Assembly: GCF_018785265.1 (NCBI RefSeq)
Contig: NZ_WQPK01000041.1
Span: 1 to 64,000, forward strand
DNA: 64,000 nt
Reading direction: 5' to 3'
Source: Collinsella aerofaciens
GTDB lineage: Bacteria; Actinomycetota; Coriobacteriia; Coriobacteriales; Coriobacteriaceae
Shown: positions 44,786 through 58,115 of the stretch, one piece after another
Position numbering within the stretch: position 1 is the first letter of the stretch
Layout: every line of letters starts with the position of its first letter
The notes under the pieces: model-generated
What the model was told of the DNA's origin: nothing
Databases searched by the model: none
Seen by the model: only the letters and a program-made list of their open reading frames with translations
Made by a program: the position numbers and the translations under genes

Positions 44786-47413
44786 CTATTCGGCGTCGGG
44801 GACCTCGTAGGTGGCCGCCGGCGTGTTGTCGCACACGACGGTAAAGCCGCCGTCCTTGTCGGCATCGACCGTCACCTGATCGCCCTCGCGCACCGTGCCG
44901 TCGATGATAGCGGCGGCGATGGCATCCACGACCTCGCGCTGAACCAGACGCTTGAGCGGACGGGCGCCAAAGACCGGGTCCAGGCCGCCCACGGCGAGCA
45001 TCTGCTTGGCCGCCGGGGTGATGGCAAGCGTCATGCGCTCCTTGGCCAGACGCGCGCGGACGTCGGCGAGCTGGATGTCGACGATCTTCTCGATCTGCGC
45101 CATACCGAGCGGATGGAACACCACGATATCGTCGATACGGTTGAGGAACTCGGGGCGGAAGGTCTGAGCCATGGCAGCGTCGACCTGATGGCGCATCTCC
45201 TCCTCGTCCTTACCGGACAGATCGGCGATAGCCTTGGAACCCACGTTAGACGTCATGATGATGATCGTGTTCTTGAAGGACACCTGACGACCCTGGCCAT
45301 CGGTCAGACGGCCGTCGTCGAGCACCTGCAACAGCACGTTGAAGACATCAGGATGAGCCTTCTCCATCTCGTCGAGCAAGATTACGGAGTACGGGCGACG
45401 GCGCACGGCCTCGGTGAGCTGGCCGCCCTCGTCGTAGCCCACGTATCCGGGGGGCGCACCGATCAGACGCTGGACGCTGAACTTCTCCATGTATTCGGAC
45501 ATGTCGATACGCACGAGCGCGCGCTCGTCATCGAACAGGCACTCGGCCAGCGCCTTGGCGAGCTCGGTCTTGCCTACACCGGTGGGGCCCAGGAAGAAGA
45601 AGCTGCCGATGGGCTTGTCCGGATCGGAGAGACCCGCACGGCTGCGGCGCACGGCCGCGGCAACGGCGGAGACGGCCTCGTCCTGACCGATGACGCGCTT
45701 ATGCAGCTCGCCCTCCAGGCCCTTGAGCTTGTCGAGCTCGCCCTGCATCATCTTGGACACGGGCACGCCGGTCCAGGCACTCACGACCTCGGCGATCTCG
45801 TCGGAGGTCACCTGCTCGTTGAGGCCCTCGCCGTCCTGCTGCTTTTGTGCCTCGAGCGCAGCCTCGGAATCCTGAATCTGCTGCTGCAGGCCCGGAATCA
45901 CGGAGAAGCGCAGCTCGGACGCACGGCCCAGGTCGCCGTTGCGCGTTGCACGCTCCTCTTCGCTCTTGGCCTCGTCAAGCTGGCCCTTAAGCTCCTGCAC
46001 GTGGTCGATGGCGTTCTTTTGGTTGAGCCAGCCGGCCTTTTGCACGTTGAGCTTTTCCTGGACCTCGGCAATCTCTTGGCGCAGGGCCTCCAGACGCTCC
46101 TTGGAGGCGTCGTCGGTCTCCTTCATGAGCGCCTGCTCCTCGATCTGCAGCTGGGTGAGCTGACGCATGGTGGCGTCGATCTCGACTGGCATGCTGTCGA
46201 GCTCCATGCGCAGGCGGCTTGCGGCCTCATCGACCAAGTCGATGGCCTTGTCGGGCAGGAAGCGATCGGCAATGTAGCGATCGGAGAGGTCGGCGGCGGC
46301 CACGAGCGCGCTATCGGTGATGTGCACGCCGTGGAAGATCTCGTACTTTTCCTTGAGGCCACGCAGGATCGAGATGGTGTCCTCGACGGTGGGCTCGCTC
46401 ACCATCACGGTCTGGAAACGACGGGCGAGCGCCGCGTCCTTCTCAATGTACTTGCGGTACTCGTCGAGCGTGGTCGCGCCGATCGCGTGCAAGTCGCCAC
46501 GGGCAAGCGCCGGCTTCAGGATGTTGCCGGCGTCCATAGAGCCCTCGGTGGCACCCGCGCCCACGATGGTGTGGAGCTCATCGATGAACAGGATGACCTT
46601 GCCCTCGGATTTTTGCACTTCTTTGAGCACGGCCTTCAAGCGGTCCTCGAACTCGCCGCGGTACTTGGCGCCGGCGACCAGCGCGCTCATATCGAGCTCG
46701 ATGAGGTCGCGGTCGCGCAGGGTACTCGGCACGTCGCCGGCCACGATACGCTGGGCGATACCCTCGACGATGGCCGTCTTGCCGACGCCCGGCTCGCCGA
46801 TGAGCACGGGATTGTTCTTGGTGCGGCGGGACAGGACCTGAATAGTACGACGGATCTCGTCGGTACGGCCGATGACCGGGTCGAGCTTGCCGGCGCGGGC
46901 CAGATCGCAGATGTTGCGACCGTACTGCTCCAACGCCTCAAACTGAGTCTTGTCCTCGGCAGACGTCACGCGGTCATCGCCACGCAGCTCCTCGTAGACC
47001 TGCTCGATGCGCTCCTTGGTGACGCCGGCGTCGCGCAGCACGCGACCCGCCTCGCCCTTGTCCTCGGCAAGCGCCATGAGCAGATGCTCGGTCACCACAA
47101 AGCTGTCGCCCATCTTGGTGGCCTTCTTCTCAGCCTTCTCGATGACGCGAACGAGCTCGTTGGAAAGACCCATCTGCTGGCCCTCGCCCGAAACCTTGGG
47201 CGCGTGGTCGATGGCATCCTGCGTGGAACGCGCGAGCTGAGCGGGATCGGCGCCGATGCGCTCGATGATCACGGAGATGTTACGCTCGCCGGCGCCGAGC
47301 AGGGCAGACAGCAGGTGGATCGGCTCCACCGCGCCGGCCTGCGCGTCGGCAGCCGTGCTCATGGCGGTCTGCAGCGCCTCGCGCGACGTCATTGCTAGCT
47401 TATCGATTCTCAT
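44786..47413 (-). CDS. clpB: ATP-dependent disaggregase ClpB
   Basis: 875 residues. Clp N domain, first AAA+ module with Walker [14 protein letters not shown], a complete coiled-coil middle domain (about 410-530) and a second AAA+ module with [13 protein letters not shown] and [13 protein letters not shown]. It rescues aggregated proteins with DnaK. GAGAGGTG precedes the ATG. Its upstream region carries a 27-bp sequence almost identical to one before dnaK, so it belongs to the same heat-shock regulon. Confidence 0.98.
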
Positions 47414-47502
47414 GGAATCACCTCTCTTGGGGCGGCCGCCCTACGGGGCGGCTTCACGTTGTTCGAGAAGTATTGTTGCCAGCTTTGCGCGTTCTTATAC
47501 AC

Positions 47503-47529
47503 AAATCTAAGTCTCTATATATAAGATTT
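47503..47529 (-). promoter_or_regulatory. Shared heat-shock operator, clpB copy
   Basis: 27 bp with ends AAATCTAAGTC and ATATAAGATTT, an imperfect inverted repeat. The same ends and spacing occur at 57773-57799 upstream of dnaK. Best candidate regulator is HspR, encoded at 53364. Confidence 0.72.
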
Positions 47530-47591
47530 TCTGAGTGATTGAAAGATAGGAAGCAGGTGCGCTCACCCGCTACGGCCTCGTCCCCTTACTA

Positions 47592-47727
47592 TCTCAATCT
47601 GTAACATCTAGTCAGCAAATAGAGCTCTATCTGTTACAAATCGAGACGAACAGAAAACACCCGGATCAAAAATCTAAATCTGTAACACCAGGCCCACTTT
47701 TAGCGGCCAAGATGTTACAGATCGAGA
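47592..47727. repeat. Two 55-bp palindromic units (A, B)
   Basis: Unit A 47592-47646 and unit B 47673-47727, each with 15-bp arms (TCTCAATCTGTAACA or TCTAAATCTGTAACA, and TGTTACA-type partners ending TCGAGA) and a 25-nt loop. Start-to-start distance is 81 bp. Three more units of exactly 55 bp occur at 49467-49682. Confidence 0.75.
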
Positions 47728-47737
47728 CAGACCGAAA

Positions 47738-47772
47738 ACCACCACAAAGAGGGCAGGCACCTTTGTGGTGGT
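47738..47772 (-). terminator. CACCACAAAGG palindrome, copy i
   Basis: Arms ACCACCACAAAG (47738-47749) and CTTTGTGGTGGT (47761-47772), then TTTTCGG on the minus strand. It lies 8 bp beyond the stop of the gene at 47781 and 10 bp from unit B. It may act as a terminator; it is also a repeated family. Confidence 0.65.
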
Positions 47773-47780
47773 CGCGGTCT

Positions 47781-48452
47781 CTACTCCTTCGCCGAACCCG
47801 TACTTCCCGATTCGACGGTCCAGGGCATCTCATCCTCGAACAGCCATGTACGGGCAGACCCACTATCGCGTGCAGTCTGCGGGTCAGGCAAGCAGGTCTG
47901 TTTATAGGCATCTTGGATACACTGACCCATAAAATCGTTGAGCTCGGTCTGGTCGCCCTCCATGACATAGGCGACATCGCCGTCCATGATGTAGATGCCC
48001 GGACCCTCATTGCCCTCGTAGCCCGGATCGTACGAGACATCACATAACTTTGCGCCGTTTGCAGTGTCCAGCTCGATGGAAGAGTGGCATCCGCCAACCA
48101 TGTCGTTCGCTTTTGCCCGATAGGACGCATATCCGTACCAACGCTTAAGTGTTTTGCCCTTGAGTAGCTCAGACGCCCTATCGATCAGGCTTGTATCCGT
48201 GGTATAGCGCATGGCCCCAAGCTGAATACGCGGATAATTGCTAATACCCAGCACAGCCGGCTGCTCATCAAAATCAACGGTAATGGTCTCGGGCTTGTCG
48301 TCGCCGGTCAGAAGTTCGACAGATTGAGTCACAGGCTTGACCACCGGCTCCGTCACCGCAGCAGGTAGAAATGCCATACCGACAGCGCCCACACCAACCA
48401 CGGCGATCGCAAGCGCCAGAGCAATCAATCCAATACGGGCAGAGCGACTCAC
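47781..48452 (-). CDS. Small anchored protein, paralog 1
   Basis: About 223 residues from GTG 48452 (GAGG 7 nt upstream, and the resulting short N-terminus matches the paralog at 49731); an ATG at 48485 is an alternative. One N-terminal helix (about 6-28), then an extracytoplasmic domain containing SNYPRIQLGA, DGDVAYVMEGDQ and a C-terminal block QTCLPDPQTARDSGSARTW. The last 50 residues are almost identical to paralog 2, while the rest is about one third identical. Function unknown. Confidence 0.75.
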   Translation of the reverse strand: MSRSARIGLIALALAIAVVGVGAVGMAFLPAAVTEPVVKPVTQSVELLTGDDKPETITVDFDEQPAVLGISNYPRIQLGAMRYTTDTSLIDRASELLKGKTLKRWYGYASYRAKANDMVGGCHSSIELDTANGAKLCDVSYDPGYEGNEGPGIYIMDGDVAYVMEGDQTELNDFMGQCIQDAYKQTCLPDPQTARDSGSARTWLFEDEMPWTVESGSTGSAKE

Positions 48453-48539
48453 AGCAAAACACCTCGCAATGCAGATCTGCGTCATTTGCCCTAATGATAC
48501 CGTCAGCTAACACTATCACCAAAAGAAGCCGCTCGCTCC

Positions 48540-49730: not shown

Positions 49731-50420
49731 CTACTCTTTTGCCGAGCCCGTGCTTCCCGATTCGGCGGTCCAGGGCATCTCATCCTCGAATAGCCATGTA
49801 CGAGCAGATCCACCATCGCGTGCAGTCTGCGGGTCGGGCAGGCAGGTCTGGTCGTACGCGTCCATCACGCAACAATCCAAAAAATCGATCACCTGCTGCT
49901 GGTCGCCTTCAAGAATGTAGGTCACGCCGCCATCTTGGATATAGACGCCGTCCCCACCTCCGGCTTTTGCGTATTCCGGATTGTAGTTAACGGTGCGCAT
50001 CAGTTTGCCATCAGATGAATACAACTTCAGCGTTGTATAGTAGCCACCGTTCACAGAACCACGTCGGCGCTCATAGGCATCCCAACCGTCCCAGCGTTTG
50101 AACGAACGCCCGTTTAGCAAATCCAGCGCCTGTCGGGACAACTTCTCGTCCTTGGTATAGCGAGACGAGCCAAGTTCAATCATGGGGTAGTTGCTTATGC
50201 TTAGAATGCCCGGCGTTTCCTCGATATCGAGCGTTATCTCATCGGGCTTTGTAACGTCCGAAATCATTTGCCCGGGCATCGATGCAACAAGGGACGCCAT
50301 CTCAACCGTCTGCTCAACCCCACTCGGCCCATAGAAGATAAGCGAGCCAAATAGGACCACGCCCGCAGCAGCGACGACGCAAGCCACCAACAGCAACAAA
50401 ACAGAAGTGCAACGCTTCAT
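49731..50420 (-). CDS. Small anchored protein, paralog 2
   Basis: 229 residues from ATG 50420 with TGGAG upstream (GTG at 50432 is part of that site). One N-terminal helix (about 4-28), then a domain with SNYPMIELGSSRYTKD, RSFKRWDGWDAYERRR and DGGVTYILEGDQQQ, and a C-terminal block nearly identical to paralog 1 (QTCLPDPQTARDGGSARTW). Function unknown. Sequence identity with paralog 1 is concentrated in the last 150 bp of the gene and the palindromes after it. Confidence 0.78.
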   Translation of the reverse strand: MKRCTSVLLLLVACVVAAAGVVLFGSLIFYGPSGVEQTVEMASLVASMPGQMISDVTKPDEITLDIEETPGILSISNYPMIELGSSRYTKDEKLSRQALDLLNGRSFKRWDGWDAYERRRGSVNGGYYTTLKLYSSDGKLMRTVNYNPEYAKAGGGDGVYIQDGGVTYILEGDQQQVIDFLDCCVMDAYDQTCLPDPQTARDGGSARTWLFEDEMPWTAESGSTGSAKE

Positions 50421-50582
50421 CTTCAACTCCACAAACGAGAGTGTTTTGAGCTCACTTTAAAGCGCCAACTTCATACTGTCAATTCTAGATAGCATATGAA
50501 CAAAGGCGCACTCCCCCATAGAGGAGAGTTGCAACCTCGATTTTAGCGCCCTCAAGACCCAACGAGCAGCACTTAACAAGTA

Positions 50583-53363: not shown

Positions 53364-53780
53364 CTAGAGATCTCCGCCGGCGCCCAGTAGCTTGCGCATG
53401 ACTTGCTCGGGGTTAACCGAGCCATCGCGCGGGGCCAGGGCGGTGATCTTCTTCTGCATCTTGTACTCGTGCAGCTCATCCTCGAGCTGGCGCACGCGAG
53501 CGCGGAGCTTCTCGTTCTCGCGCTCGCGCTCCTCGGCACGCTCCTTCATATCGAGAATGCGCACCACGCCGGCAAGGTTGATACCCTCGTCAGTCAGCTG
53601 GTTGATGAGCTCCAGACGCTCGATATCGGCACGCGAATACAGGCGCGTGTTACCGCCCGAGCGCTGGGGGTTCACCAGGCCCTTAGACTCGTAGACGCGC
53701 AGAGTCTGCGGATGCATGCCGGTCAACTCGGCCGCCACGCTGATCATGTACAGCGGTTTGTTCCTATTGTCCTCGGCCAT
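53364..53780 (-). CDS. hspR: Heat-shock repressor HspR (MerR family)
   Basis: 138 residues. MerR-type HTH PLYMISVAAELTGMHPQTLR and YESKGLVNPQRSGGNTRLYS, then a coiled coil (ERERENEKLRARVRQLEDEL) and a basic C-terminus. In actinobacteria HspR, with DnaK as co-repressor, represses the dnaK operon and clpB. It is last in the dnaK-grpE-dnaJ-hspR operon, 72 nt after dnaJ. Candidate operators are at 47503 and 57773. Confidence 0.93.
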   Translation of the reverse strand: MAEDNRNKPLYMISVAAELTGMHPQTLRVYESKGLVNPQRSGGNTRLYSRADIERLELINQLTDEGINLAGVVRILDMKERAEERERENEKLRARVRQLEDELHEYKMQKKITALAPRDGSVNPEQVMRKLLGAGGDL

Positions 53781-53852: not shown

Positions 53853-54818
53853 CTAGTACGTCGCCTTGTAACGGTTGACCTTCTCGCGATAGTCGCGCGT
53901 GTCGGCCTCGCGCAGCTTGGTCATGGCATCGCGCTCGTCATCGGATAGGTTCGTGGGGACCTGCACCTTGATCTCGACGAGCAGCGCGCCCGTACGGGCA
54001 CGGTGCTTAACGTCGGGCGCTCCCATCTCCTTAAAGCGGAACTTCTTGCCCGTCTGAGTACCCGCGGGCACTTTCAAACGGACCGTCGCACCGCCGGGTG
54101 TGGGCACGTCCACCGTGCAGCCGAGCGCCGCCTCGTAGACCGAGACCGGTACCTCCATGGTCACGTCGGCGCCTTTGCGCTTGAACAGCGGGTGCTCCTC
54201 CACATGCGTGGTCACGACCAGGTCGCCGCGCTCGCCACCCGCAACGCCATACTCGCCGCGACGCTTGTAGCGTAGCTTGCCGCCGTCGACCGCGCCCGCG
54301 GGCACCGAGACCGTAATGGTCTGCTGCTCGCCTGTCGAGGGAATGCGATAGGTGACCTTGTGCGTCACGCCGCGAAACGCGTCCTCGGCCGTCACATCGA
54401 CGGTCAGCGACAGGTCGCCGCCCTTGCGAGCACGGCTGCGACCCGCGCCGGCACCGGCAGCGCCCGCAGCCCCGGCAAAGCCCGAGCCCCAATCGCTGCC
54501 CCAGGCGCCGTTGCCGCTAAAGATGCTGTCGAAGATGTCGCCCCAGCCGCTGGCACCCGCGCCGGCACCGTAGCCGCCGCCATACGCGCCGCCCGCGCCC
54601 GGCATGCCGCCAAACATGAGCATCTGGTCGTACTCTTTGCGCTTCTTCTCGTCCGAAAGCGTCTCGTAGGCCTCGCTGATCTCCTTGAACTTGGCCTCGT
54701 CACCGCCGGCATCGGGGTGATATTTTTGCGCGAGCTTGCGAAACGCGCTCTTGATCTCTTTGTCGGAGGCGCTCTTGGATACGCCCAGGATGTCATAGAA
54801 GGTTTTGCCTGCAGCCAT
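53853..54818 (-). CDS. dnaJ: DnaJ-type co-chaperone without zinc fingers
   Basis: 321 residues. J domain (1-70) with the HPD motif in KYHPDAGG, a Gly-rich region (about 75-135), then the two C-terminal beta domains. The CxxCxGxG zinc-finger repeats of classic DnaJ are absent; there are almost no Cys, so it is a CbpA-like type B J-protein. It stimulates DnaK ATPase. 107 bp after grpE, with a hairpin between them. Confidence 0.93.
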
Positions 54819-54925: not shown

Positions 54926-55768
54926 TTACTCCTCGGTGCTCTCGGCCGTATCGGCCGCAGCATCCTCGGGCGCCGCTTCGGGCTCCGGTGCGGGGCGCTT
55001 CTCGCCACCGTAGGTCACCGTCACCATCGCGGAACGCAGGATGCGGTCCGCCATGCGGTAGCCCTTCTGGTACACGTCGTTGACGGTCTCGTCGTACTGC
55101 GATGCGTCCTCGACGCGACCCACAGCCTGATGCTCGAGCGGATCAAACGCTTCGCCCTTGGGGTCGATGGGCTCAACGCCCTCATGCGCAAACACGTCGA
55201 GCAGCTTGGCATGCACCGCGTCGACGCCGTCGACGAACTGCTTAAAGTCGTCGGCAAGCTCCTGACTGCGGGCGTGGTCGATCGCACGCTCGATATCGTC
55301 GACCACCGGCAGCAGCGCAGTGACGAGCTTCTCGGTCGCGCGCTCGCGCTCGGCGATACGCTCGTTGGCGGTGCGGCGACGGAAGTTCTCCCAGTCGGCC
55401 TGCAGACGGGCGGTGCGCTCGGTGGCGTCCTTTGCCTTGTCCTCGGCGGCCTTCTGAGCCTCTGCCGCAGCATCGAGCTCGTTGCGCACGTCGGCAAGCT
55501 CTTTCTGAGCCTGCTCGAACTTGAGCTTAAAGTCGTTGTCGGCGGCTTCCTCACCGGCGCGGATAGCGGCTTCCACCATCTCGTCCTCGGTCATCGTCGC
55601 CTCCTTGTTGGAATCCTCTACTTGGTTCTCGGCAGCCTCGGCGGCCGGGGCCTCGTTGGCCTCGGTAACGTCTGCGGCCTCTACGGGAATCTTCACGTCC
55701 TTCTCCTCAGAGTCAACGGGGGCGGCACCAACGGCGGCCGCCTCCGTGCGAGCTTTACGAGCGGACAT
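54926..55768 (-). CDS. grpE: Nucleotide exchange factor GrpE
   Basis: 280 residues, longer than the usual 190-200 because of an acidic Ala/Glu-rich N-terminal extension of about 80 residues. The core has the long helix (KLKFEQAQKELADVRNELDA and on), NFRRRTANER and the C-terminal beta domain with YQKGYRMADRILRSAMVTV. Follows dnaK by 2 nt. Confidence 0.95.
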   Translation of the reverse strand: MSARKARTEAAAVGAAPVDSEEKDVKIPVEAADVTEANEAPAAEAAENQVEDSNKEATMTEDEMVEAAIRAGEEAADNDFKLKFEQAQKELADVRNELDAAAEAQKAAEDKAKDATERTARLQADWENFRRRTANERIAERERATEKLVTALLPVVDDIERAIDHARSQELADDFKQFVDGVDAVHAKLLDVFAHEGVEPIDPKGEAFDPLEHQAVGRVEDASQYDETVNDVYQKGYRMADRILRSAMVTVTYGGEKRPAPEPEAAPEDAAADTAESTEE

Positions 55769-55770
55769 GA

Positions 55771-57663
<1,893 letters not shown>

Positions 57664-57772
57664 TAGAAATTCCCTCTCTCTTTTGCGTTCGCGCCGCCTC
57701 GACGGTCTGTCGCGCGGCGCTTCGGCTTGTCTTTCAGGATGTAGTGTATCCCCTTATGGGCCGGAATATACA

Positions 57773-57799
57773 AAATCTAAGTCAATTCATATAAGATTT
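57773..57799 (-). promoter_or_regulatory. Shared heat-shock operator, dnaK copy
   Basis: 27 bp with ends AAATCTAAGTC and ATATAAGATTT, identical to the clpB copy except for five or six central bases. It overlaps the probable dnaK promoter (TGTATATT on the minus strand just downstream). Confidence 0.75.
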
Positions 57800-57954
57800 C
57801 TTATTGCCAAGAGTTTAGGTTCGCAAATATGCAGGTAGACGCGCTGTTTGAGTTCTGGGCAGATCTATCGAGATCTATGTAGAGATGGCTGAGGTTTGCG
57901 TCCGGGGGTGCCTGGGGGCCGTCTTGCGGAAAGCTCATCCCGGTTTGATCGTGG

Positions 57955-58115
57955 ATTCCGGGTCGCAGTTTCCGTCTGAAGGCTCAACCGGAAACCGTAT
58001 CCCGTTTTGAGAGCTGATACCGGCTCGCATTTTCCGCTAGCGGGCCTAACCGGAAACTGCAACCTGTTTTTCGACAAAATAATGGGATGCGGTTTCCGCA
58101 AGCACGCTCAATCGC
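57955..58115. repeat. Degenerate tandem repeat of about 62 bp
   Basis: Two and a half units sharing TCGCAGTTTCCG, GGCTCAACCGGAAAC and CCCGTTTTGAGA or near variants, starting about 57957, 58021 and 58083. Each unit has an internal inverted pair GTTTCCG/CGGAAAC. Nothing else is visible between the dnaK operator and the ferredoxin promoter. Confidence 0.55.

Follow-up and report, generated by a model that had tools for sequence, protein, structure and literature searches.

A predicted HspR operator with a local HAIR spelling before the chaperone genes of Collinsella aerofaciens

The DNA analysed here, a stretch of 64,000 nucleotides referred to as the window, belongs to a Collinsella aerofaciens genome of 2250767 bases (2.25 Mb; G000) and carries, on its minus strand, a dnaK-grpE-dnaJ-hspR operon and a clpB gene (Table 1). 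The final gene of the operon encodes a MerR-type heat-shock repressor whose score exceeds the curated NF047375 cut-off; it is the only gene of the genome to pass it, and its product is matched at 100% along 138 residues by proteins of three Collinsella aerofaciens strains.

Table 1. Chaperone genes and predicted regulatory features of the window (positions are those of the window)
Feature	Position	Strand	Sequence	Basis
clpB	44786..47413	-		TIGR03346, 1301.4 bits, cut-off 1232.1
possible -10 box adjoining clpB operator	47494..47499	-	TATAAG	sequence
predicted HspR-type operator, clpB	47503..47529	.		
clpB operator, strong arm	47503-47512			
clpB operator, 7-bp spacer	47513-47519			
clpB operator, weak arm	47520-47529			
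hspR, MerR-type heat-shock repressor, final gene of dnaK operon	53364..53780	-		NF047375, 119.6 bits, cut-off 105
dnaJ-type co-chaperone	53853..54818	-		TIGR02349, 249.7 bits, under cut-off 377.2
grpE	54926..55768	-		best NCBIfam match NF010738, 130.1 bits, just under cut-off 137
dnaK	55771..57663	-		NF001413, 1019.6 bits, cut-off 648
possible -10 box adjoining dnaK operator	57765..57770	-	TATATT	aligns with -10 position of relatives, two-base shift
predicted HspR-type operator, dnaK-grpE-dnaJ-hspR	57773..57799	.		same place has a site in 76/76 dnaK upstreams of the class
dnaK operator, strong arm	57773-57782		AAATCTAAGT	
dnaK operator, 7-bp spacer	57783-57789			
dnaK operator, weak arm	57790-57799		TATAAGATTT	
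weak second HspR-like site, uncertain	57871..57897	.		3 mismatches to AAATCTNANN-N7-ACTTAGATTT

The same 27-bp element with identical 11-bp ends stands before dnaK and clpB, as the initial annotation had pointed out: scanned over the whole window, AAATCTAAGTC-N5-ATATAAGATTT is matched exactly at the two operators of Table 1, upstream of dnaK (136-110 bp from its start) and of clpB (116-90 bp from its start), with no third place in the window at up to 3 mismatches and 0 matches in 100 dinucleotide shuffles of it. This 11-N5-11 parse, literally true of the letters, was dropped in favour of 10-N7-10, which fits both the dyad and the relatives. The window sites then read AAATCTAAGT-N7-TATAAGATTT, with one arm eroded with respect to ACTTAGATTT; on the gene strand, the strong arm is ACTTAGATTT and the weak arm AAATCTTATA. 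The full dyad AAATCTAAGT-N7-ACTTAGATTT occurs with 0 mismatches before hsp20 in two genomes (G083 and G098) of the window genome's own family.

Genome-wide, at up to 3 mismatches, AAATCTAAGTC-N5-ATATAAGATTT is found at three places, the third (contig C40, 12275-12301) lying before groES-groEL, and the palindrome AAATCTAAGT-N7-ACTTAGATTT at four, namely before dnaK-grpE-dnaJ-hspR, clpB, groES-groEL and hsp20; the backward-read control gave 0 in each search. All four are chaperone genes, and at this threshold no site was found in the genome before non-chaperone genes; the unrelated, non-heat-shock targets that would have told against the proposal did not appear. In Mycobacterium tuberculosis, HspR controls an Hsp20 gene. 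The htpG upstream of the window genome has one arm only, in a 27-bp stretch that ends ~62 bp before the start; htpG has a fuller site in front of it in G005 and G019, where the gene is named by Pfam, and in G144, where it is named by its N-terminal sequence only. HrcA has no match over its cut-off in the window genome and CtsR (PF05848) no match there, which speaks against a CtsR operator; nor is this a case of CIRCE (TTAGCACTC-N9-GAGTGCTAA) at groES together with hrcA, the best groES CIRCE of the genome having 6 mismatches. A definition of the site by AAATCT-N15-AGATTT alone was also considered and abandoned; one match to it, in G028, lies inside a frame that by eye is lysyl-tRNA synthetase-like.

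Conservation was followed through the class. An HspR-family match is present in 118 of its 119 genomes and exceeds the cut-off in 110; because nearly all genomes have such a match, presence of HspR cannot be correlated with presence of the operator. The surroundings of HspR were taken from 80 of the 109 other genomes over the cut-off, giving 81 sets with the window's own, five of them without a usable dnaK start; all the remaining 76 dnaK upstreams, the window's included, score over the 99% shuffle score with position weights fitted to the same sequences as were scored. Weak sites among them are those of G060 (score 5.7) and G094 (13.5), the shuffle maximum being 13.2. The same threshold is exceeded at dnaK in 61/61 named loci with a usable dnaK upstream (61 of 80 loci). 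For groES, assembled from 80 of 113 other genomes with a match plus the window's own, 77 of 81 upstreams pass, again with weights fitted to the scored sequences. In a DnaK tree of 60 rows (at most two rows per genus plus the window, with row G060 on a long branch), the families f1 and f5 group together with an SH-aLRT of 100, beside f2; the evidence suggests that f1, to which the window genome belongs, is Coriobacteriaceae, f2 Eggerthellaceae and f5 Atopobiaceae. The HspR-type pattern is present without mismatch in 18/18 groES upstreams of f1. At hsp20, 20 of the 21 upstreams of f1 lie within 3 mismatches and the 21st at 5, as against only 4 of 9 within 3 mismatches in f5; 150 shuffles of the two families together never fell below 7. 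The groES sites of f5 (e.g. L151 and L152) often fit a 6-bp spacer better than a 7-bp one.

The known HspR operator, HAIR, is CTTGAGT-N7-ACTCAAG in the available portions of PMC6102357 and PMC7464140. The initial annotation had held the 27-bp element to differ from it, which is right for the letters, as the strong arm TCTAAGT of the window sites agrees with CTTGAGT at 4/7 positions and the weak arm TCTTATA with the HAIR arm at 2/7; it does not extend to the inverted repeat with its 7-bp spacer, the T-A-G core of the arms or the position before dnaK- and clpB-type genes in a genome with hspR, all of which are those of HAIR. The likeness of the arms was hidden because the N5 parse had been used. 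Collinsella arms are TCTNAGT/ACTTAGA within AAA/TTT, one arm being eroded to TCTTATA at dnaK and clpB. Relatives connect this spelling with the literal one: HAIR itself, within the same AAA/TTT flanks, stands before groES of G085 as AAACTTGAGT-N7-ACTCAAGTTT, groES of G099 has AAATCTGAGC-N7-ACTCAGATTT, and two named loci of Acidimicrobia have AAAGTTGATR-N7-ACTCAACTTT at dnaK, nearer to HAIR. In 53 distinct groES sites from outside f5, arm position 6 is invariably T in both arms, position 8 is nearly always A, and position 9 is G in 52/53 right arms and 29/53 left arms; these positions correspond to T3, A5 and G6 of HAIR. Matching between the arms is barely above composition (0.74 versus 0.61 at position 4, for example) and so favours the dyad only weakly. 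Membership in HAIR is thus one of geometry and context, not of literal letters; the kind of element, an HspR/HAIR operator, is already known and the letters of this lineage are a variant of it. The Bifidobacterium HAIR (AAAsTTGAGysw-N6-CTCAAsTTTT), in the part of PMC9004370 available, shares the AAA...TTT flanks and the sites before dnaK and clpB; in contrast, its core arms are literal TTGAG, and the table of that paper assigns groES and groEL to CIRCE/HrcA, with HspR given for neither.

At clpB, an own site is present in 9 of 10 upstreams of f1 within the 260 bp examined, the tenth (G019) having a clpB-type site just beyond this distance, and in 13 of 18 upstreams of f5; in f2 (0/15) and f12 (0/12), where clpB comes after hspR, no upstream has such a site. 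Given that f1 and most of f5 possess what f2 and f12 lack, it is conceivable that the clpB promoter arose as a copy of the dnaK promoter and that copying is the main cause of the likeness of the two window sites, which have in common the eroded arm plus one further base at each end of the centre. Such an origin would be compatible with both being HspR sites; as the main cause it is nevertheless unlikely, since the groES and hsp20 sites have the same dyad with other centre and arm letters, and a copy accounts for the origin of the likeness but not for its retention.

The protein expected to read these operators is constant where the operators vary. Across 81 HspRs, H23-R28, Y30 and E31 are invariant, and this region is presumably the recognition helix, as in MerR-type proteins; the solved structures closest to HspR by sequence are those of GlnR and TnrA. 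A change in HspR specificity was considered as the cause of the new letters and rejected, none of the first 80 columns being uniquely fixed in f1 and f5; the operator letters therefore drifted without visible change in HspR. An unrecognised heat-shock repressor that replaced HspR at these promoters and now owns the site would also agree with a letter switch to which no HspR residue change corresponds and with letters so unlike literal HAIR. However, the spacing, dyad and T-A-G core of HAIR are kept, intermediate and literal HAIR sites occur at the same promoters in relatives, and hspR itself sits within the first controlled operon; with neither HrcA nor CtsR turning up in the window genome, one HspR gene in it and four sites that all precede chaperones, the regulator other than HspR that the initial annotation had allowed for is very unlikely.

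The dnaK and clpB sites cover the stretch that holds the -35 box and spacer in relatives. In the families other than f1 and f5, dnaK mostly has CTTGACA as its left arm; the TTGACA within it is spaced 17 bp from a -10-like box, so that site and core promoter overlap. In f1 and f5 an AAATCT-like arm has taken its place and no -35 match is left. A sigma-70 scan finds no full promoter at either the dnaK or the clpB operator. That the element is no operator at all and merely the -35 box and spacer of a heat-shock promoter, as the overlap might suggest, can hardly be correct, because the dyad is kept in f1 and f5 where TTGACA is not, the groES site faces the opposite way and lies further upstream than at dnaK and clpB (mostly ~75-95 bp upstream of CIRCE in HrcA-positive genomes), and hsp20 has a dyad that is almost perfect, with no mismatch at all in G083 and G098. 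In this Coriobacteriaceae lineage the 27-bp element very probably serves HspR as its operator, in a local spelling of HAIR; the lineage-specific HspR site initially put forward is well supported by regulon content, by conservation and by the graded series to literal HAIR.

The groES operator brings in the second repressor, HrcA, which scores over the cut-off in 66 of the 119 genomes of the class, with 15/15 in f2 and 0/19 in each of f1 and f5. Two f5 genomes of g32 (G123 and G128) have near-full-length HrcA matches just under the cut-off; no other f5 genome sampled combines an HrcA match with CIRCE, and the clade around them is free of HrcA. On the DnaK tree at least five changes of the HrcA label are needed when the short form of G042 is counted as positive; HrcA may have disappeared on several occasions and been retained in g32, or have disappeared a single time, with g32 regaining it later. 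CIRCE, at up to 4 mismatches, is present in 42/42 groES upstreams classed with HrcA (the two of g32 counted in) and in 2/37 from HrcA-less genomes, G052 with a perfect copy and G081 with 4 mismatches overlapping the HspR site; among the 81 upstreams, G042 (CIRCE present) and G111 (CIRCE absent) are unclassed for HrcA. The short HrcA, in which the middle of the profile is absent, was also seen in genomes of f6 (e.g. G153 and G157), as in G042 (f13), in each case with a perfect groES CIRCE. Most groES upstreams of f1 and f5 have lost CIRCE and keep the HspR-type site.

A held-out set of 30 genomes gave 25 groES upstreams, two of them from f2 and the others from further families of the order. CIRCE was present in 13/13 with a full or short HrcA and in 1/12 without (G152, 80% complete). 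The HspR site passed in 15/25, that is, in 10/12 genomes without HrcA, 3/6 with a full HrcA and 2/7 with the short form; dual control is therefore common but not universal, and genomes with the short HrcA are mostly without the HspR site. Comparable arrangements are described elsewhere. In Helicobacter and Campylobacter, according to the available portions of PMC6102357 and PMC7464140, HspR sites at groESL lie upstream of the promoter and CIRCE near the start, a layout that recurs in many HrcA-positive Coriobacteriia; by comparison, the Collinsella family is without HrcA and CIRCE, and HspR alone is left. In Mycobacterium tuberculosis, a double deletion of hspR and hrcA raises groES (PMC5335608, in the part available), although there both repressors are present.

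These distributions make it likely that HspR acts alone as dedicated repressor of the chief chaperones of the cytosol (DnaK, ClpB, GroESL and Hsp20, in some species also HtpG) in the Coriobacteriaceae and in most of the Atopobiaceae, that an ancestral control of groESL by both HspR and HrcA let HrcA and CIRCE vanish without a gap in control, and that the letters drifted from HAIR to TCTNAGT under a constant HspR recognition helix. A dimer of HspR, product of the last gene in the dnaK operon, would bind the dyad AAATCTAAGT-N7-ACTTAGATTT and repress dnaK-grpE-dnaJ-hspR, clpB, groES-groEL and hsp20, and heat or misfolded protein would draw it off its sites. Relief of repression might come about by titration of DnaK, as reported from work on Streptomyces. 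The scheme offers a testable heat-shock regulon for Collinsella, a common human gut genus, and a natural series for how one repressor takes over the targets of another and for the extent to which the letters of an operator may drift while the recognition helix stays constant. A search that left subscription journals mostly outside returned no literature linking HspR with Coriobacteriia, which is weak evidence of novelty; with the same coverage, HrcA and Collinsella were found joined in one paper only, apparently a general review.

The weak site at the end of Table 1 lies 98 bp further upstream than the dnaK operator and has a like sequence in the near relatives G108, G135 and G007; 0.20 matches to the degenerate pattern behind it are expected per window, and it could be a second low-affinity site. 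Other features of the window concern its repeats and paralogues. Two neighbouring genes (47781-48485 and 49731-50432) encode paralogous proteins with no NCBIfam match, 50% identical over 201 residues, with C-termini that are almost the same. A pair of 62-bp direct repeats (71%), flanked by inverted repeats, is found at 57923-58102, between dnaK and a gene judged ferredoxin-like by eye. Upstream of clpB, two 68-bp copies (47591-47658 and 47672-47739; 71% alike) are palindrome-like with TGTAACA arms, and similar arm letters occur on contigs C18 and C66 of the same genome.
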